From positions 1 through 27,006 of IMG/VR virus record IMGVR_UViG_3300002835_005343: DNA of 27,006 bases; one strand, written 5' to 3'. Positions 2,923 to 21,723 of the stretch are shown here, one piece after another. The DNA comes from a virus. Under the pieces are notes generated by a model, which was given only the letters and a program-made list of their open reading frames with translations, had not been told where the DNA came from and searched no databases. Every line of letters begins with the position of its first letter. The stretch's first letter is position 1. Made by a program: the position numbers and the translations under genes.

Positions 2923-3223
2923 TCAACCACTCCTTAGCCATTTTCCTACGCTCTGCTCTCTCTTCTGTATCTTTAACCTTGTCTTTCTTTGCCTGCAATA
3001 TTTTTTCTGCATTATAGGCAAAGTAGTTCCACGATGGATTCTCTGCAACTGAAAAATAATACTCAAGTATATCGTAGCATCCTGAAATTCCGTATGACTC
3101 TATAAGCCCGTCAGAGGCCCACTGCTCTACGTTTAAATTAAGTGATGGCTTTGACTCGTACCTTGCGGTATGATACTTGCTGTATCTTGAAAGCAAAGCC
3201 ATACGGTCTTTGCGTTCAGCCAT
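2915..3223 (-). CDS. Small basic protein directly before the helicase; possible helicase loader or partner
   Basis: The protein has 102 residues. The centre (about residues 33 to 70) contains WASDGLIESYGISGCYDIL followed by a segment rich in Tyr, Phe and Trp, and the C-terminal third is highly charged and helical (many Lys, Glu and Arg). I do not recognise a named family with certainty. It overlaps the helicase start by 8 bases and its own ATG overlaps the upstream stop as TAATG, so the pair is translationally coupled. Small helical proteins encoded immediately before a phage DnaB-type helicase often act as loaders. That role here is an inference from position and size only. A GAAGAG-like ribosome site precedes the start. 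Confidence 0.7.
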   Translation of the reverse strand: MAERKDRMALLSRYSKYHTARYESKPSLNLNVEQWASDGLIESYGISGCYDILEYYFSVAENPSWNYFAYNAEKILQAKKDKVKDTEERAERRKMAKEWLSE

Positions 3224-6772: not shown

Positions 6773-9700
6773 TATAATACCTCACTTAAGAATAATGTCA
6801 TGTCTGGTCCGCTTGAATTTCTTGAAAAGTCAATATTATATACTACAAATCGATTTTGTGGATTTGATGCTATGCTTACATTATTTTCTATGTAATCTAA
6901 AGTAACTATGTCTCCAAGTTGGATTGTAGGAATTGAAAATATTTTAACCCCCAAAGATCTTCTAGGCTTTGATGTTTTTTCAACCATCCATTTCATAAGA
7001 CCCATTGCTTCGTCTTGTGACTGAATATATTGAGTATCTAAAGAAAAGTCTTTTTTCCCGTAGGTCATTCTGCTAAGTTTGATATCTTGATAATCTTGTT
7101 TAAATTTGAACGGATTAGAAATTAGCCTATCTGAAACAAACTGTGGATCTGAAGTGATGCTGTTCTTGTTAAAATAATCATCTACTGTAAGTTGATTACT
7201 AGACTGTTGTGTAAAAGTAATACCCTGAATTCTTAAATAATTTCCACTTGTTTCATCTAAATTAAGTTGTGTATCTGTTGCATTAAATATTAAAAACTCA
7301 GCACCATACGACCCTGCCTTAAATCCAGAAACCACATAGCCTTTTATATTATTGAATGTTGGAGAGATTTTTGCAGTTAGTGCTGGGTATGCCTTATCAT
7401 ACTTAAAACTAAATGACGCTGCTTCTCTCATAATACTTCCAAACTCTTCAAAGTACATATTGTATTTTGGAGGTCCTGAAGGTCCTATTCCAGAAAGGTA
7501 CGTGTTTTGAATTAGTCCGCTCATCGCATACTTTCTAAAAGATTCACTTGCAGTTATCTCGTTGTCTTCAAAAACTGAGTTAACTGGAGCATCTAAAGAA
7601 AACGTTGTGTTTTGGCTATAGTTATTAGATAGAGCATAAACATTCTCAAACATTGCTCTGGCCGATCCTCTTGTAAATAATGCAACATTAGAATATTCTG
7701 GAAGTGGATCTGCGTCATCCACAGTCTTTATTAATTTTCCATTTAAATATAAATAAAATCTACGAATGTTTCCTATGTTTTGATACTCAACGGCTAAATC
7801 GTAAACGGTTGGATTTTCTTCAGCAAACATTCTAGACTGTCCAGTAAACCTTCCATCGTCTACTAGAATATTGGCAAGGCCATCATATAAAGGAATAGGA
7901 ATAGCATTCCCACCATCTGACTTTACTTTATAAAAAAATACGTTGCTAACTGATCTTCTATCATCTGAAGATAACTTTTCTAATCCAAGTGCTGCTATCT
8001 CAAAATAATATCCAACATTCGTAGAAGTATTCAACATTACCGCTAAGCCAGCAGAGCCTCCAGATATACTTATGTTTTTATCTGGGGTAGATCCATTCAC
8101 AACAAAATAGGTGCTTGATCCATTTGCTGTTTGTCCAGATGTTTTTGCACTTTCTATTTTCCCAACAATTCTTAGGCGAGTTCCGAAGTGTTTATACTTA
8201 TTGTCTGGAAAAGACTTATGGACATAAGATATAAAATTTCTTGGCTTTTCTTTTGTTGTAAAGTTGGGTCCAGTTAAAGAAAGAGCGGAAGACTGAATCG
8301 ATCCTGGGTGTGGCTGTGTTCCTGTAGTAATCTCTCCAGCCATAACTGTTGACATAAAGTTTTTAATTAATCCTGTTCTAGAAGAAGTTCTTGCTAGTGC
8401 ATCAGAAGATATTCCTGTGTCTGTTATTTTGCCTGCAGTTGCTATCGTTGTTTGTGGAATAGGAGTCTTTTTTTCAAACAGGTATTCTGCTGACATGTGA
8501 CATCCTTTAATATTATCATCAGATTTCCAATAATCAGATATACCTGCGGAGTGTTCAACGACTGTTGTTCCAAACTGCCCACGCCCATGCTTTGCAACAG
8601 CACCATTCTTTAGTTTAATCGTGCCGTTTATGTCCTCATAAATTGGCTCAGCATAAATCCTTACAAGTCCTGTTGGATATATTTTTCCATTAAATGGCAA
8701 CTTGGAAAAATAATTTTGATAATCTTCTACAGATGTTATCCAAACATTTCCATATCCACTGACATTAAATTGAACTGCATCATACTTTATTATCTCTCCA
8801 CTAGAGTAGAAGTATCCATTGTATCTTGTGATCCAATATACAGACTCTCCAAGGCTAAAGGTATTGTTAATAACAACATTGTTTTTTACAAATGGAACGT
8901 CTGCTGCTAGGTTGGAGTTTAAGGGTATTGCACTAAGCACGTATGCAGACTGATTGTTTACTTCATTGTTAATTGATTTTGTGTTTTGTGTTCCAGCAAC
9001 TTCCCAAAGAAGAGCAGGCTTATATATATAAACTCTTTCGTCATCTAAAAGGCTGGCCTGCCTAATTGAACCAATAGATCTTTGAATGTGTCTTGTTGTG
9101 TAGTTGATAACTCCACCGTTGTAAACATTGTTTGATTGAGTCGACACCTCAATAATGTTTTCAATCTTGCCATTGCTAGTTCCTTTATTCTTAATCTCTT
9201 TGTCTGCAGACAAATCTTTTGTGCCTTTAAGTTCAAAGGTTGTTTCTCTTTGATTTTTTGTTGGCATAAAATAATCCTTGCTCATCATTACGAAATTATT
9301 ATATTCATCAAAAAACATTGCGGTTTGTGTTGATATGGCTAAGTCCTGTAGAATTTCTGCTACGCTTTGATCTGGAGCAACAAAAAAATATGGAATAATT
9401 ATTTCTGTTTCTCCATCAACTCTTTTAAATGTGTAGTTAGAAAACCCAATGCTGTCTAACAAAAGACATACAGCAGAACTAACAGATACCTGTGTCATTA
9501 GTATTTCTGGGGCAGTTATTGATTCTAAATACCAGTACATATCTCTTAATGTAAGAGAAACAGTTTTGGCCATAAAGTCTTGCTTAGGGAACGCATCAGA
9601 ATATAATGTTTTCATTGGAACAAAATAATCCCATCCATCTACATCAACAATAACTTCATAAAATTTAAACTGAATGTGACGATTAATGTATTTGGCAATT

Positions 9701-14700: not shown

Positions 14701-17700
14701 GATTGCTGCATTTCTAACATTCTTTAATCTTTCTAAAAGGGATTTGTATGGATCTTCTTTTTTAGTTTTATCTCCATCTCCATCTTTAAACTTTCCTGCC
14801 TTTTGGCTGGCGATGGCCTGTTTTTGTGACTGCATTGCTCTTTCTGCTGCTATAGCATCAATAGCGGCTGCTTGTCCAGCAGGAGATGCCCAATAGTCGG
14901 CAACAGTGCCTGCTCCACCTGCTGCCTTTACCTTTTCTTTAGTAAAGGCATCAATATCTCCCTGTCCAATTGTTTTCTTTACTGTAATGTATTCCTGAAT
15001 GACAGTTTTCTTTGTTTCATCTGGCAAGTTGCCCCACTGATCCCATACCGCAAGAAGGGAACTCATATTTTCTACTGTACCATCTCCGTCAGTATCTAAT
15101 TTAGAAATTGCTTCTTTTGTAATTGGAGTTGGCATTTGTTCAACCACTTCAAGTTCTTCTTGAAGTTTTTTAAGTTTATCCATAGCATCTTCTTGTTCAA
15201 AGAATGCTTCAAGGTTAATTTCTTTACCGTCCATCTTTTCCATGAGATTGATTGTTGAAACAAGTTTGTCTGCTTCTTCTGGATCGGCGTTGGCAATCTT
15301 GGCCATAATTGTTTTTACAACTGCTTTAGATTTTTTGCCCTTAAATCCTCCGAGAGAGTTGATTAACTGAGTAACTTTTCCTGGGTCTTGTAGTTTTGTT
15401 GTTACATCAAGGAATGTTTCAAGTTCGTCTTCTTTACCTGCAAACATGTCTAAAAGCGTTGTTGCAGTTGCGGTTGGAATTGCTCCAGATGCAACAATAG
15501 TGTTTATCTTAACTTCTAGTTCTTTACTCTCAAGGGCTGCAGAAGACTTTAAAAATGCGTCAGCAAAATCTCCTTGCCCCGTTGCCTCAGCCTTTAGCCT
15601 TACCTGATCTTTTAGTGAATCAAAGAATGCACCCTCTGTTGCTGCTCTTTTTTGTGCAATTTTAAATTGAGCAAGTTGATCTTTTAATATTTGTTCATTT
15701 GTTGCTCTTAAGGTTACTAAACCGTCTTTTCTTTTACCCTCTATTATTGAAATTTCATCGTCTATTAGTTTTCGCTTTGCTGAGTCTGCTGTTGACGCTT
15801 TCTTTACCTCAAGAATTTTTACTTCTTTATCATATTGAGCATTTAGTGAATCAATTTGAGACTGATTAAACTCTAAATCTTGTGTGCCTCTTGCAGCAGA
15901 TGATGCAGCCATTTTTTCTGAATCGGTCTGTGTAAATGCTTCTGCAAAGTTATATCCTTTGCCAGTTGCACTACCGCTAAGAATACTTTGAACAATTTGA
16001 CCACCTGGAATCATAGTTCCAATTGAGCCTAATAGGTTATCTCTACTAAAGGCATTTGTATCTTTTTCCATCTGACTAGCAAAGTTAGAGCCTAATTGTT
16101 TTGTTAAGTCTCTTTGCTCTTCTACTAATTTTACTCTTACTTCCAAAGGATTTTTGAGTAAGTCTTCTCCGCTTGGTCCGATAAGATCTAAAAGTTGTCC
16201 GCTGATTTGAGATGTAAGAGTTGTATTGTTTAAGTTAATTCCAATTTGGCTTGCAACGCTGTGCGCTTGCTCTGCACTCATTATTCCATCTGAAACATAT
16301 CCAGCAAGTTGAATAGCCATTGTCTTTGCTGCAACATCAGTTCCAGACTGCATGTTTTTAATAAATCCAGACATTACATCTTTGCCTACTTCATTTTCAA
16401 AGAATGTTGCTCCAAACTGCTCTTTTCCTCTTTCAAAACCAGTAGTGTATCTATCAGATGCAGAGGCCTGTCTCTTTCTAGCATAGATTTCAGTTGCTCC
16501 AACTTTTCCAGTTAAAGCACCAATACCCTTCATTTTTTCTGTTGTTGCAGATGTTTCGTCAACTAGTCTAGACTGTGATTCTGCTGCCTTCTTTGCTACC
16601 TTGTCTAATAAGAATAGACCTCCACCTGCTGCTGCTACTGCAGTTAATGCTATTCCAAATGGTCCCATACCTGCAAACATTGGAGCCATACCAGCAACTG
16701 CAGATGCACCCATTGCTGCCATGCCAGCAGTTTGTTGTCCTGCCATCATTAAACCCATACCTGCAGTTCCAAGGGCCATGGATGCTCCTCCTGAGAAGCC
16801 CCCTATCTTTTGCTGACGAGCCATTCTTTTTTCTTTGACTGCTGCTTTTGCATCTGCTTTTTGTTGTCTAGCAATTTCTTTAGCAGTTTGAGATGACTGT
16901 GCTATCTGTTTTCTTTCATCAGCCATTGCTTTTTGCTTTTCATGCTGGTTTCTTTTTTCAACTTCGGCAGCAATAAGCCTTGTTCTGTATTGAGTCAATG
17001 CCTGATTTATTTCTTTTTGAGTTAAGTTGTTTCTTTGCTTTAATAGTCTTGCTTGCTCTTGCATAGCATTTGTAATTCTTCCTTGTGCTGCCTTGCTTAG
17101 TCCTGGATCACCTTTAACCATTCCAGGCATAGAGAAGCCAGGTGCTGATGCAAAGCCTCTACGGAAATTCATAAGTTGTCTTCTTGTTGCAACTGTTTGG
17201 CTTGGTCCTAAAGAAGTAGTTCTTTGATCTCTTGAACTTCCGCTGCTTGCAGATGCTCCAGCAGGCTTTGGCCCAGTATTCTGATTTGTTAGTTTTGATT
17301 CTTTTCCAGAGTCGGTGTTAACCTTAAACTCATTTCTAGGATCTACTAAAACCTTGTCTGCTGATTGTGCAGCCAAGTCAATGCGTCTTGATGGTTTTAT
17401 TGAGCGATCTTTAAGTATTGCGAGCAATGACTTAGCATTTATTCCAGCATTTTTACCTAATGTTACACCAGGAATTTTATTTCCTTTTGCAGTATGGTCT
17501 GCTGCATATGCCTCTAACTCTGCTGCTTTTGCTACAAGTGCTCTCTGCTCTGGTGTCTCTGGGTGTAGACCCGTTTTCATAAATTCTGCTGCTTTTTTAT
17601 AATCAGACAAAAGAGCGGGATCTAATCCTAGAGGGTTTGCTCCGCCCTTATTGTTCCAATTTAAAATCTTTTCAAATCTTGGAGATCCCTTTCCAATAAA

Positions 17701-20700
17701 TCTATTGAGTGCGTAAGTGTCATACTGTGCAGTTCCAGTTTTAAACTTTAGCGGATCTCTTCCGCCAATTCCAGTATTACCAGTTATATGAGATAGTTCT
17801 GGAGACAACTTTTTAAGAATTTGATTGTCAGAAAGTCCTAACGTTCTCATCTCTATTGCTGCAGGACTCTTTAAAACATTCGCCATTCTTGCGTTATATT
17901 CATCTAAAAGTTTTCTTGCTACAGGTCTAACAACATCTGAAAGAACTCCAAGACCTCCACCAGCAGCCTTGCCAGTTGATCTAAGATCTGTTATGAAATG
18001 GTTTGGTGCTCCGAACCTTCCTTCAAAGCCTCCACCAGCAACGAAAGATCCTTTAGCATTTGGAACAACTCCCATTCTGTAAAGAAGCATATCTCTAACT
18101 TGTTGTGGAGTTCTTGCATATTTTGCTCTTCCGTCTGGGTCTTCTCTAAACTTATCCATATCTGCTGCATGAATATATTTTGTTACCCCGTCAACATTGA
18201 TTGGGGTCATCTTAGAAATTTCATTTAAGAACGATGACTGCCTTGGTGTATCAAACCTTTGTTCTTTCATTGAAGGAGGTACAGGGGCTTTTCCACCATT
18301 CCACGCTGCTTCTATAACTGCCCTTCTTGCAGGGTCAACACCTTCTAACGCTTTATTAAAGTCATGTTTAAGTTGAGTTTTTAATTTTTCTATCAATACC
18401 TGTTGCTGATTTTCTGATCCGACTACATACTTTCTAATCTGTTCTTCAACAACTGACTTTGTTGCTCCAGAGCCAATACCTTCTTCTGCTTTTACAACTC
18501 CTTCGCCTGCACGGGCATGCATTGGGTGTAGTGCTGCCCAATCAGTCTTTGCTCCCTTTCTGAGCCTCTCAAGCATATTATTATAAGTGATTTGCTCTTC
18601 TGGGCTTAGGCTTCCACCCCAGGACTTAATAACTCTTTCTAGTCTAGGAATAGATGCATTAATTTCTTTTTTAATTTCAGCATCATATTGCCTTGGAGTC
18701 ATACCCGCAGCAATTCCAGATGTTTCTTGTGCAAAGAACTTCTTTGCTCCACCCTTTACACCAAGTAAGTTTATAATTGCTTGCTGCTCCATGCTTGGCA
18801 TGACTTTGGCAAAATCTCTAAAACCAGATGCCCTATCAAATACTCCAGCAGTTCCAACATCTGCCAATACATTTCCAGACAGATTTGGCTTTTGTAAATC
18901 TTTGTCTCCTCTGAGAGTAGATGCGACCAACTGCTTTATCATGTCAGACTTGCTAAACTTACCACTCATTGATGCTATTCTTGGATCATAAGGCGACTCA
19001 ACAACAATAAATTTTCTTTGCCCTGTAGGGTCTGTTGGGTCTATCATTGTTCTAATAGTTTGTTTTGGTGATACAAGTCCGTGAACATCTCTAGCAATTT
19101 GTGTAGCCCGAACTTCTGCTAAAGCAGTTCTTTCATCTATTGTTGGTTTTACTACTACGATTTGTCCATTAGGCTTTCTATATACCCCGCCAACTCCACG
19201 AGCAGGAAAACTTCTTCCTGAAAATGACTGAAGCATAGTTCCAAAGTTTGTAGGTGGCACATCTGCAAACCTTCCAGCCTTAACTGAGTCAGATATCTTG
19301 TCTAAAATTTGTCTAGACTGTGATGCTTCTTTAGCAGACTTTGGCATACCAACAAATACTGGCCCCTTTGGTGATTCTGGATGAGGCTCGCTATATCCTT
19401 GTCTCGCATCATCTCTTCTTCTGTATTTTGCTTGCTGTGCTTTTCTAACTGCTGCTGGACCGTCAGACAGTGGTATTCCACGTCCTGGCCCCCCAGGAAG
19501 TCTTCCAGCCATAAATCCTGGAACCTTATCCTGGAACATTGCAGTAATCAAACCTCTATATTTGTCTGTAGTTTCTGTAGGAATAACTGCTTCTCCTGGA
19601 GAAAGCATTGCTGGAACAACATCTCCTGCACCCTTTGGACCAGGAACGCTAATAATTCCTTCTTTGTATTTTCTAACTGGCGGTAATTTGCTTGTTGCTG
19701 CTTTTGCTCCGCCCATTCCTCCAGCAAACAATCCTGGATTTTGTGCTGCCATTGATCTCATTTGAGTAGACAAAGAATTGTAGGATGCAGCAAGTGCAGC
19801 AACTGAAGCCTTTTCAACATTAAATACTTCAATAAGCCTTGTGTGTGTTTGGTGAAGTGCTTGAGAGGCTGCAGCAGATTCTATCTGTTCTTGAGTCATA
19901 TAGTTAAACGATGCACCCATTACAGATGTTTGACCATTTAGTTTGGCAATGCCACCACGAAGCATTGCAAAGAATTTAATAACATTTGCAACACCGTTTG
20001 CAAGCAAACCAAATGTCATAAGAACAATTGGTCCTAAGCCTGCTACTACACCAACGATAGTTGCAACAACCTTTTTAGTTTGATCACTAAGACCATTAAA
20101 CTTTTCAAAAAGATTTCCAAAGAATTTAACGACTGGAGTTAGTGCTTCAAGGAATGCTTTTCCTAAAGGCATAATTTCTTGCTTAAATTGCTCTAGTGCT
20201 GCTTGAAATTTAACTCCAGTTGACTCTTCTATCTTTTTCATTTCTCGTTCAGATAAAATTGCCAACTCTTCTATTGATGATCCCGCTAACTGAAATGCTC
20301 TAGACGCTTGAGATCCATCTTTTGTTACGTTTTGAAACAGTGTAGACAGACGAGCAAACTGGAATTTGCCAAATAGTTGCTCGATTGCTCTTGCACGATT
20401 TAGTGGATCAAGTTCATCTAAAGCCCTTGCAAATCCAACAACCGTTCCCTTAATGTCTCCCTTGTTTGCTTCAACAAGTCCCTTAATATTAATACCCAAG
20501 TTACCAAGGAACTTGGCTGCCTTGTCTGATGGGTTAATTAAAGAAGCAAGACCAGACTTAAGTGCGTTAGCGCCTTCTGATGCATTAATTCCGCCTTCCT
20601 TCATTGCTGTAAGGAAGAATGCTAAATCTTCTACCGAACCTCCAAGTTGCTTTATGACTGGGGCTGCTTTTGGAATTGCAATTGTCAAGTCTTCAATAGA

Positions 20701-21723
20701 TAGAAGTGTTTGGTTTTCTACTGCGTTTAAAAAGTCAATTTTCTTTGCAAGATCTTCGCTAGAAATTCCAAATGCGCTTTGTAAAGATATTGTAGTTTCA
20801 AGTGCCTGCTGTTGCTCTATCTGACCAAGTACTGCTAATTTTGTTGCTGTTTCAACTTGAGCGGATAAAGCATCTCCCTGAAAACCTGCTGCTGCAGCGG
20901 TTGCTGCCATCTCCATTGTTTTGGTTACAGAGACTCCGTACTTTGTATATTCGTTTCCTAGTTTTCTTATATTCTCAACTGCTGCATTTACTTCTGCATC
21001 ATTTGTAAAAGCATCTCCATAAACACGACGGAATTTTACTATTTCAGCGTCCAACTCTTTAAATGCTTTTGCTGCGGAGGCACCAAACAAAGCCAAAGGC
21101 ATTGTCAAACCAACCATCAACTGACGGCCTGCCCACTGAGTATTCTTACCAAAGTTTAGAAGTTGTGTAGATCCCTGCTTTAGTAATTGATTAAGGAATT
21201 GCTGTCTTTGTGCAGCGTATTGAATTCTTGTTCCAAGTTCTGTAAACTTGCCACTAGCCATTTGAAGACTTTTAGGCATGACCCTAATTGCGTCCATAAA
21301 TCCAGCATTGGATTTATTCATTTGGATGTACTGTGCCTGTAGTGCCTTTACTCTGTCTCTACGAGCACGATTAATAATCTCTCTTTCTTGTGCAAAAGCC
21401 TTACCTAAAATACGGGTGTTGGCAGTTGCTGCTGCCATAGTGTATCTGTAGTATTCACGAAGAGATAGTTTGTTTTTTTCTAAAGCAGAAGTAAAAGCAA
21501 GTGTGCTTCCTGCTACCTTAACTTGGCTTGCAGAAAATTTTCCTGTAGCACCTATAGATTGTATTAGTTGAGCATTTAAACCCTTTTGGGCATTTGCTGC
21601 AGCCAGGTTACCCTCAGCAAGTAATTGATGAAACTTACTGAGGCCTGCCTGAAGTTGTCTTAGTTGTGCAAGAGCGGCAGCCGTATTAAAATTAATATTT
21701 ATATTAGAATTTACATCTGCCAA
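11692..21723 (-). CDS. Tape measure protein with long insertion and coiled coil
   Basis: This 3343-residue protein sets tail length and is likely ejected into the host with the DNA; the length predicts a tail near 500 nm. Residues about 240 to 465 carry the TP901-type tape measure core. Hydrophobic stretches near 548 to 590 and 1637 to 1708 could cross or pierce membranes. A VPAMLSPGEAVIP motif near 700 recurs as VPAMLTPGEFVMS near 3260. A kinase-like segment lies at about 830 to 1060. Residues about 2720 to 3020 form a long coiled coil, followed by a Gly/Asn repeat (3103 to 3129), a Trp-containing repeat (3136 to 3166) and an Ala-rich helix (3180 to 3223). The start is TTG at 21723, preceded by AAAGAGGTG. 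No lysozyme, peptidase or Rpf-like wall-degrading motif was recognised. It lies downstream of both chaperone genes, as expected. Confidence 0.95.
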   Translation of the reverse strand: MADVNSNININFNTAAALAQLRQLQAGLSKFHQLLAEGNLAAANAQKGLNAQLIQSIGATGKFSASQVKVAGSTLAFTSALEKNKLSLREYYRYTMAAATANTRILGKAFAQEREIINRARRDRVKALQAQYIQMNKSNAGFMDAIRVMPKSLQMASGKFTELGTRIQYAAQRQQFLNQLLKQGSTQLLNFGKNTQWAGRQLMVGLTMPLALFGASAAKAFKELDAEIVKFRRVYGDAFTNDAEVNAAVENIRKLGNEYTKYGVSVTKTMEMAATAAAAGFQGDALSAQVETATKLAVLGQIEQQQALETTISLQSAFGISSEDLAKKIDFLNAVENQTLLSIEDLTIAIPKAAPVIKQLGGSVEDLAFFLTAMKEGGINASEGANALKSGLASLINPSDKAAKFLGNLGINIKGLVEANKGDIKGTVVGFARALDELDPLNRARAIEQLFGKFQFARLSTLFQNVTKDGSQASRAFQLAGSSIEELAILSEREMKKIEESTGVKFQAALEQFKQEIMPLGKAFLEALTPVVKFFGNLFEKFNGLSDQTKKVVATIVGVVAGLGPIVLMTFGLLANGVANVIKFFAMLRGGIAKLNGQTSVMGASFNYMTQEQIESAAASQALHQTHTRLIEVFNVEKASVAALAASYNSLSTQMRSMAAQNPGLFAGGMGGAKAATSKLPPVRKYKEGIISVPGPKGAGDVVPAMLSPGEAVIPTETTDKYRGLITAMFQDKVPGFMAGRLPGGPGRGIPLSDGPAAVRKAQQAKYRRRDDARQGYSEPHPESPKGPVFVGMPKSAKEASQSRQILDKISDSVKAGRFADVPPTNFGTMLQSFSGRSFPARGVGGVYRKPNGQIVVVKPTIDERTALAEVRATQIARDVHGLVSPKQTIRTMIDPTDPTGQRKFIVVESPYDPRIASMSGKFSKSDMIKQLVASTLRGDKDLQKPNLSGNVLADVGTAGVFDRASGFRDFAKVMPSMEQQAIINLLGVKGGAKKFFAQETSGIAAGMTPRQYDAEIKKEINASIPRLERVIKSWGGSLSPEEQITYNNMLERLRKGAKTDWAALHPMHARAGEGVVKAEEGIGSGATKSVVEEQIRKYVVGSENQQQVLIEKLKTQLKHDFNKALEGVDPARRAVIEAAWNGGKAPVPPSMKEQRFDTPRQSSFLNEISKMTPINVDGVTKYIHAADMDKFREDPDGRAKYARTPQQVRDMLLYRMGVVPNAKGSFVAGGGFEGRFGAPNHFITDLRSTGKAAGGGLGVLSDVVRPVARKLLDEYNARMANVLKSPAAIEMRTLGLSDNQILKKLSPELSHITGNTGIGGRDPLKFKTGTAQYDTYALNRFIGKGSPRFEKILNWNNKGGANPLGLDPALLSDYKKAAEFMKTGLHPETPEQRALVAKAAELEAYAADHTAKGNKIPGVTLGKNAGINAKSLLAILKDRSIKPSRRIDLAAQSADKVLVDPRNEFKVNTDSGKESKLTNQNTGPKPAGASASSGSSRDQRTTSLGPSQTVATRRQLMNFRRGFASAPGFSMPGMVKGDPGLSKAAQGRITNAMQEQARLLKQRNNLTQKEINQALTQYRTRLIAAEVEKRNQHEKQKAMADERKQIAQSSQTAKEIARQQKADAKAAVKEKRMARQQKIGGFSGGASMALGTAGMGLMMAGQQTAGMAAMGASAVAGMAPMFAGMGPFGIALTAVAAAGGGLFLLDKVAKKAAESQSRLVDETSATTEKMKGIGALTGKVGATEIYARKRQASASDRYTTGFERGKEQFGATFFENEVGKDVMSGFIKNMQSGTDVAAKTMAIQLAGYVSDGIMSAEQAHSVASQIGINLNNTTLTSQISGQLLDLIGPSGEDLLKNPLEVRVKLVEEQRDLTKQLGSNFASQMEKDTNAFSRDNLLGSIGTMIPGGQIVQSILSGSATGKGYNFAEAFTQTDSEKMAASSAARGTQDLEFNQSQIDSLNAQYDKEVKILEVKKASTADSAKRKLIDDEISIIEGKRKDGLVTLRATNEQILKDQLAQFKIAQKRAATEGAFFDSLKDQVRLKAEATGQGDFADAFLKSSAALESKELEVKINTIVASGAIPTATATTLLDMFAGKEDELETFLDVTTKLQDPGKVTQLINSLGGFKGKKSKAVVKTIMAKIANADPEEADKLVSTINLMEKMDGKEINLEAFFEQEDAMDKLKKLQEELEVVEQMPTPITKEAISKLDTDGDGTVENMSSLLAVWDQWGNLPDETKKTVIQEYITVKKTIGQGDIDAFTKEKVKAAGGAGTVADYWASPAGQAAAIDAIAAERAMQSQKQAIASQKAGKFKDGDGDKTKKEDPYKSLLERLKNVRNAAINAAGGIEELNKALAAGNSKSVENKFRGVEQQMNAMKLNRQFIDFVMAQDPTEQAKYFTTAGPKIKKGKNKGRIVDPYNKKKFLPEGTKTGDVVLSKVGKTYNKGLDAAVVGEFNSAVSKSVLLLNEQEGVRRKLVAAGYDAVSIENILQDEYTTAAIFAGKITDEELKTNVELSKQLTNRQKINNLISKGSKAIQEQKDIAKIPTVVEFLKNQGVSGDSLRSIIGDPESLSEAISAMEDYQSNAAGAADRLKEIVAGLKAIQENSDIKVAIDFAVKTTAQQVQAGADAANKVMDAKRSIYNYLNLSQLSTATSEYKDGRPAQQVGKIATANVAARYAKAGADIPTVPEGATISSIRTAREANAKTMGLASTKLQQIQGRKAKIQSDIADQDKILSDAIDGVNKKYDDIIKGIQDNIKTMEKTIKGYQKDIDSKEKTLKEQFTDKIDAFNKENQALSNDLAIMDKAAEDINEKYDKQVEALQKVNELNQQIVESQGQQLNLADALTSGDIAAAARVAQEMRASSAANQGDALMQGLENARTNELDSLTNADGKTRKQITERQFEISQEIYKLETDPKRLEIEKQILDLKALITAEQEKIVLEQEKIDIQEEKRTEELRNQQALYDAAVIKLNEQLKIEEANEKVQTKILEDLEKQDEELASQEAYLVAIAEEAIAIDDTTGMTLQKWEETKDKVKDIKELAEAYAIALAAADKSAATTATSWSGILDTINKIPKSVTTDSIINEIRNITENITQYVTTVYVDGGNNGNSGNNGNSGNNGNNGNNGNSGNTNQAPGKAWISDGKGGWTKPPKPGDDYEWDDNKGWTKKVNNTNTGDKTTSEQNAADAAAAKAEADRLAAEAAAKKAADAWAAQKAADAAADATNELLNGGSWWNGTNYYRAKGGLINPMKFAMGGFAKGTDTVPAMLTPGEFVMSKYAVDSYGVDNLKLINSGKSPMGSVYNNTYALTVNAKTDASPNEIAQAVMSTIKQVDDRRIRGVSLNGR
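12337..12417 (-). repeat. Gly-Asn-rich tandem repeat in the tape measure C-terminus
   Basis: Short imperfect repeats (built on GTTGTTTCC-like and GTTGCC units in the plus strand) encode GGNNGNSGNNGNSGNNGNN and continue for 27 residues. The stretch likely forms a flexible linker between the coiled coil and the Trp-containing C-terminal segment. The units are near-identical, so copy number could change by slippage without breaking the frame. Confidence 0.85.
18544..19236 (-). other. Kinase-fold-like region (HipA/PI4K pattern) within the tape measure protein
   Basis: Tape measure residues about 830 to 1060 read like a small-molecule or protein kinase of the HipA/phosphatidylinositol-4-kinase type. 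GVGGVYRKPNGQIVVVKP fits a glycine-rich turn and the strand with the nucleotide-binding lysine (Lys859). LAEVRATQIARDVHG (868 to 882) fits the helix with the partner glutamate (Glu870) and the small helical Ala-Arg face. FIVVESPYD (905 to 913) fits the hinge strand. GDKDLQKPN (939 to 947) matches the catalytic Asp-x4-Asn pattern (Asp942, Asn947), and GVFDRASGF (960 to 968) matches the metal-binding Asp (Asp963) 16 residues later. These spacings fit the family, but no alignment or structure was run. Activity is unproven. Confidence 0.45.

Follow-up and report, generated by a model that had tools for sequence, protein, structure and literature searches.

The question raised by this locus is whether a kinase-like domain can reside within the tape measure protein (TMP) of a phage tail and, if so, what it would be doing there. 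The window (the whole stretch of DNA analysed, the 27,006-base IMG/VR virus record IMGVR_UViG_3300002835_005343) contains a TMP gene recognizable from its PhageMin_Tail core, its very long open reading frame (ORF) and its place in a tail gene cluster; tail, minor tail and unknown genes are its neighbours, and replication genes are found further away. A first-pass annotation had proposed a kinase-like domain at positions 18544–19236, which, on the minus strand, does correspond to residues 830–1060 of the 3343-residue ORF. These residues lie within a discrete domain that is somewhat larger, spanning residues ~783–1083. The domain had also been located between the TMP core and a hydrophobic segment; it is bracketed by two hydrophobic segments, with a second soluble domain separating it from the more distal one (Table 1). 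Two further features of this protein may be recorded here: a VPAMLTPGE-type motif near residue 700 (~680–715) recurs near the C-terminus (residues 3247–3280), as seen in BLAST cross-matches, and a GNNGNSGN low-complexity repeat at residues ~3104–3129, also near the C-terminus, has a weak collagen match in Pfam.

Table 1. Positions in the window of the TMP gene, its domains and the residues discussed in the text
Feature	Position	Strand	Basis
TMP gene, 3343 aa	11692..21723	-	Unbroken ORF; PF10145, E 8.6e-29; phrog_10030, E 1e-97
Conserved TMP core (PhageMin_Tail), residues 252-452	20368..20970	-	Pfam match
First hydrophobic segment, residues 549-588	19960..20079	-	Kyte-Doolittle scan; position approximately kept in relatives
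Kinase-fold domain (predicted), residues ~783-1083	18475..19377	-	AlphaFold2 model; structural matches; homologous boundaries in relatives
Gly-rich β1-β2 turn, residues 836-848 (GRSFPARGVGGVY)	19180..19218	-	Between model strands 47-51 and 64-67
K859, putative ATP-binding Lys on β3 (VVVKP)	19147..19149	-	Lys in 70/70; model strand 73-79
E870, helix-C Glu	19114..19116	-	67 Glu, 3 Asp; model helix 82-99
E909, end of β5 (hinge)	18997..18999	-	66 Glu, 4 Val; model strand 122-129
Catalytic loop, R938-x-D940-x-D942-L-x3-N947	18883..18912	-	Four invariant residues; follows model helix 143-156
DFG-equivalent, D955-V-G957	18853..18861	-	D955 in 70/70, G957 65 Gly, 5 Ser; follows hairpin, model 166-171
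D963, earlier proposed as catalytic Asp, unsupported	18835..18837	-	Asp in 26/70
Second soluble domain, residues ~1160-1535	17119..18246	-	Alignment; AlphaFold2 pLDDT 82, pTM 0.60
Second hydrophobic segment, residues ~1666-1710	16594..16728	-	Kyte-Doolittle scan

An AlphaFold2 model of the domain, built with 54 aligned sequences as input, has a pLDDT of 87.4 and a pTM of 0.85 and displays the two lobes of a kinase fold. The predicted N-lobe is composed of β1, the Gly-rich turn, β2, β3 carrying K859, helix C carrying E870, β4 and a β5 strand that ends at E909; helix E, the catalytic loop, a hairpin, D955 and five helices then follow. Each motif falls on the secondary-structure element where it would be expected in a kinase, and it is from these elements that we would place the residues in a presumed cleft.

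A Foldseek search of the PDB with this model gave weak scores (best E 1.2e-3, TM ~0.25), with kinases or the kinase-like SidJ in the top rows. When Foldseek's best 1000 PDB matches were rescored with VIA-align, the best 50 rows listed were all kinase-fold proteins, with the atypical families leading. CtkA is the best match, with a Z-score of 10.5 over 203 residues at 4.6 Å, followed by PI4KIIα (9.9), FAM20C (9.4), HipT (9.2), HipA (9.2), VPS34 (8.9) and actin-fragmin kinase (8.3). AAK1, JNK and p38, ordinary kinases at the head of the Foldseek list, are absent from those 50 rows. As a control, the neighbouring soluble domain of the same TMP was processed identically and reached a best Z of only 4.5, to unrelated proteins. 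The predicted model thus has the β-stranded N-lobe with helix C and the helical C-lobe of the kinase superfamily, at Z-scores of 8–10.5, and its closest matches are the HipA, PI3/PI4-kinase and FAM20 types to which the first-pass annotation had likened it. Among viral structures in BFVD, the best matches of the domain are large phage proteins labelled portal or ADP-ribosyltransferase (A0A6J5S481, A0A6B9L6W7 from Mycobacterium phage Onyinye and A0A6J5PWC9; E 1.6e-5 to 1e-4). These model-to-model matches hint that related kinase domains may be present in other virion proteins.

Conservation of the putative active site was assessed in 70 non-redundant domains that are 44–100% identical to that of the window. 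Of 302 alignment columns, only 34 are invariant. Among them are K859, R938, D940, D942, N947 and D955, each identical in every one of the 70 relatives. K859, D942 and N947 had been singled out beforehand, along with E870, and all four are found where they were proposed; E870 departs from Glu only to become Asp (Table 1). The glycine-rich turn is likewise retained, with G845 present in 68 and G846 in all 70 domains. R938 and D940, both invariant, and the nearly invariant E909 had previously been overlooked. By simple counting, which ignores differences in conservation between residue types, the chance that the three residues named in advance would all hit invariant columns is ~0.001, and the motif residues recognized in the sequence thus appear to reflect more than chance.

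The metal-binding aspartate requires reassignment. D963 had been proposed for this role, but it is Asp in only 26 of the 70 relatives, the others having Gly, Ser, Ala, Gln or Lys at this position. Of the three positions whose conservation was to decide the matter, therefore, K859 and D942 hold and D963 varies freely. The DFG-type aspartate is instead D955, part of the D955-V-G957 motif, and we reject D963 as the catalytic residue. With this change, the order R-x-D-x-D-L-x3-N, short hairpin, D-V-G is that of a kinase catalytic loop followed by DFG, and a full kinase residue set (Lys, Glu, Asp-x4-Asn and metal Asp) can be traced across the relatives. The domain is under purifying selection: dN/dS is 0.01–0.20 in seven pairs, every one of which gives a higher value for the C-terminal part of the TMP. 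One lineage (L248, L250, L252 and L254) has Val in place of E909 in all four members and Asp in place of E870 in part of them, and some of these kinase copies may be altered or weak. Taken together, we regard the kinase fold and the retention of its active site as well supported.

The same cannot be said of any recognizable sequence kinship. Neither Pfam, PHROGs nor the PDB, the last searched with phmmer and hmmsearch, gave a significant match to the domain, and 13 members of the domain family searched against Pfam matched neither the PI3/PI4 kinase family (PF00454) nor FAM20C (PF06702). The HipA family (HipA_C, PF07804) gave no match above the cut-off, in the record or by hmmscan, and a profile–profile comparison against ten HipA proteins using hhalign did not reach significance (probability 0.2%, P 0.31). 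The best local alignment with HipA placed the catalytic loops in register, though it is not significant overall and is given no weight here. Because the profile comparison failed to reach significance, the kinship with HipA is to be read as structural rather than as one of sequence. No HipB-like antitoxin partner is present among the 20 neighbouring ORFs that were scanned, which belong to tail, replication or unknown families or to none. At the sensitivities used, the domain was found neither in cultured phages and plasmids by tblastn nor in bacterial and archaeal genomes representing 84,980 species (one genome per species, profile scans with two alignments); the one weak cultured-phage match examined closely, in Xanthomonas phage PB119, was rejected, as it runs antisense to annotated genes. 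Uncultured viruses are a different matter. Successive overlapping scans of IMG/VR recovered 17, 205, 260 and 345 contigs with relatives, so that at least 345 viral contigs carry what is apparently a new kinase family. In the relatives that were looked at, the domain lies inside a long TMP-like ORF, with the exception of one broken copy (L016), in which the kinase region (8001–8844) is interrupted by frame changes and stops attributable to sequencing error or decay.

The hosts of these phages are probably Actinobacteria, as judged from gene content and TMP similarity: WhiB-type genes score above the cut-off in 6 of 12 large relatives, and the closest TMP cores from cultured phages, at ~30% identity, belong to Streptomyces phages of ~130 kb. 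Among 14 control genomes, the WhiB family matched Corynebacterium only. The G+C content of the window is 36–41%.

How the domain is distributed among TMPs that have the same N-terminal core bears on its role. Many of these TMPs carry the kinase domain and others do not, and at least three changes of presence or absence are needed on the TMP-core tree, where the kinase-free L246 and L264 are nested within kinase-bearing clades. In both cases an empty site can be recognized. Residues 1–751 and 1055–2911 of L252, whose kinase occupies residues 759–1061, align to residues 1–749 and 749–2591 of L246; similarly, residues 1–747 and 1041–2421 of L261 align to residues 1–747 and 730–2088 of L264. In the latter pair, a short MAGxIP motif flanks the L261 kinase on both sides (~740–1060) and is present as a single copy in L264 (~740), a repeat that may mark gain or loss of the kinase by recombination. 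These alignments indicate that the domain is accessory and can be removed from a TMP. Where the core is complete, the kinase begins downstream of the first hydrophobic segment (~540–590), at a residue between ~716 and ~1330, and in most cases precedes the next strong segment of this kind.

The histories of kinase and TMP core largely agree. The L248/L250/L252/L254 lineage has TMP cores 79–82% identical to that of the window and kinases only 44–52% identical. Horizontal replacement of the kinase was considered for these four and rejected: in the kinase tree they still group with the other members of their core clade, and they are therefore best described as a fast-evolving lineage. L099 (core 57%, kinase 69% identical) is a probable case of kinase exchange, with marginal support from the AU test (p 0.047).

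Seven kinase-free TMPs with the same core (L268, L271, L285, L291, L298, L300 and L301) have different, unrelated-looking soluble segments at residues ~740–1600, with FAH-containing or RGHIAS-containing motifs among the examples seen in the kinase slot. This pattern, as read from the sequences, suggests that the position is a variable cargo slot. The second soluble domain of the window TMP was considered as a possible second enzyme, and its structural search, the control described above, was without a match. It has an invariant S-H pair, an Asp, an Arg and an H-P pair, is present in some kinase-free TMPs, L246 among them, and matches one more uncultured-phage TMP in BFVD.

The interpretation we favor, with confidence a little better than even, is that the domain is an active atypical kinase of the HipA/PI3K/FAM20 type, which the TMP carries as an optional cargo module and which enters the host along with the genome. 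Its conservation, together with its removability, is more in keeping with an effector than with a structural component. Should the kinase be active, it might work in the cell that produces the virions, for instance by phosphorylating its own TMP or other tail proteins during assembly. The TMP gene lies among structural genes and would, by analogy with other phages, be expressed late, when the domain could fold in a cytoplasm supplied with ATP, and HipA-like phage kinases located near structural genes have been interpreted as late-acting (PMC8008677). However, the otherwise similar TMPs of L246 and L264 manage without the domain, so that tail assembly in itself does not require it, and we consider a role in the producing cell unlikely. 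A kinase fold can also be put to other uses, as in AMPylation by SelO and glutamylation by SidJ, and the domain might catalyse a different nucleotide-dependent transfer on a host target, including phosphorylation of a lipid or small molecule. The appearance of SidJ in the Foldseek list and the nearly tied Z-scores of protein kinases (HipA, CtkA and FAM20C) and lipid kinases (PI4K and VPS34) are in keeping with such an activity. The domain, however, retains the Lys/Glu/Asp/Asn/Asp set of ordinary phosphotransferases, while SelO-type pseudokinases are without the catalytic Asp, and this makes alternative chemistry, in our estimation, a distinctly unlikely explanation.

That the domain could be catalytically dead, a remnant serving the TMP as a kinase-like spacer or binding module, is suggested by the E909V and E870D changes of the one divergent lineage. 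A spacer is not expected to retain catalytic residues, however, and six core positions are invariant among relatives as distant as 44% identity, under strong purifying selection; we find this explanation highly improbable. Still less weight, indeed almost none, attaches to the idea that there is no kinase fold at all and that motifs in a coincidental order have been read into a generic α/β model. It draws on the lack of significant sequence homology to kinases and on the weak Foldseek scores, and is opposed by the confident model, the Z of 10.5, the presence of kinases only in the rows listed and the absence of such matches for the control domain.

In the delivery mechanism that we propose, the TMP would be packed in the tail tube and would exit into the host envelope with the DNA once the tail tip opens. 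A folded domain of 300 residues should not fit the lumen of the tube, and the kinase would therefore travel through it unfolded. Situated between the two hydrophobic segments of the TMP, it would pass in and fold on the cytoplasmic side, where ATP is available, binding ATP–Mg through K859, E870, D942, N947 and D955. The membrane-tethered enzyme could then phosphorylate its target, whether of host or phage origin, as soon as infection begins; by analogy with the T7 kinase, proteins of transcription and translation are candidates (PMC8008677). Catalytic activity, packing in the virion, arrival in the cytoplasm, tethering and the nature of the target are all things that we infer for the predicted kinase. 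The TMPs of T5 and lambda provide the analogy that makes delivery with the genome plausible. The T5 TMP fills the tail tube and is expelled upon receptor binding, its hydrophobic stretches have been proposed to insert into the membrane and it carries a separately cleaved cell-wall hydrolase, the muralytic domain (PMC10038345). The lambda TMP adjoins the inner-membrane protein ManZ during genome injection, as it is labelled by that partner (PMC13190303).

Comparison with known systems defines what is new here. The bacterial Ser/Thr kinases HipA, HipT and CtkA have the same order of β3 Lys, helix-C Glu, D-x4-N and metal Asp and are among the best structural matches, but the TMP domain has no significant sequence match to them and no HipB partner that we could see, and is embedded in a tail protein. 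The spacing from Asn to metal Asp also differs, at 8 residues in the TMP kinase and 18 in Escherichia coli HipA (N314 and D332). The resemblance to the PI3/PI4-kinase superfamily and to FAM20C, the Golgi casein kinase, is again structural, without a match to PF00454 in the one case or any sequence match in the other; known FAM20C-type enzymes are kinases of the animal secretory pathway.

Phage precedents are closer in biology. Among the polyvalent proteins (Iyer et al. 2017; PMC5512222), kinase domains form part of large phage proteins that are predicted to accompany the DNA into the host. Those kinases lose the C-terminal lobe, however, whereas the TMP kinase keeps it in our model, with five helices after the catalytic loop, and differs further in residing in a TMP and in matching no Pfam family. 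Gratiaviridae encode a stand-alone HipA-family kinase in a gene of its own between the portal and capsid genes (PMC8008677), which is likewise HipA-like and close to structural genes but not part of a tail protein. The TMP of T5, pb2, is also expelled into the envelope with an enzyme domain, in that case a C-terminal cell-wall hydrolase (PMC10038345); the kinase fold of the window TMP is internal and would need cytoplasmic ATP. Host-bound polyvalent kinases, stand-alone HipA-like phage kinases and enzymatic TMPs are thus already known, and it is the combination of a kinase fold with a TMP that is new. In agreement with the earlier claim that no tape-measure kinase had been described, full-text literature searches of open-licence papers found none.

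TMPs are usually seen as rulers and as pilots for the DNA, and the best-known enzymes that they carry are cell-wall hydrolases. The present findings suggest that uncultured phages frequently carry a new family of kinases, of which no cultured representative turned up in the databases searched. A fuller picture, which we offer tentatively and rate at somewhat under an even chance, is that a large group of probable actinobacteriophages has a TMP cargo slot between the two membrane segments, and that one common load of this slot is a new family of atypical kinase that would be injected with the genome, tethered to the membrane and active in the first moments of infection. If this is true, the tail of a siphophage can supply the host with a signalling enzyme ahead of all phage gene expression, and a kinase that is both conserved and removable offers a concrete test of TMPs as protein-delivery devices.
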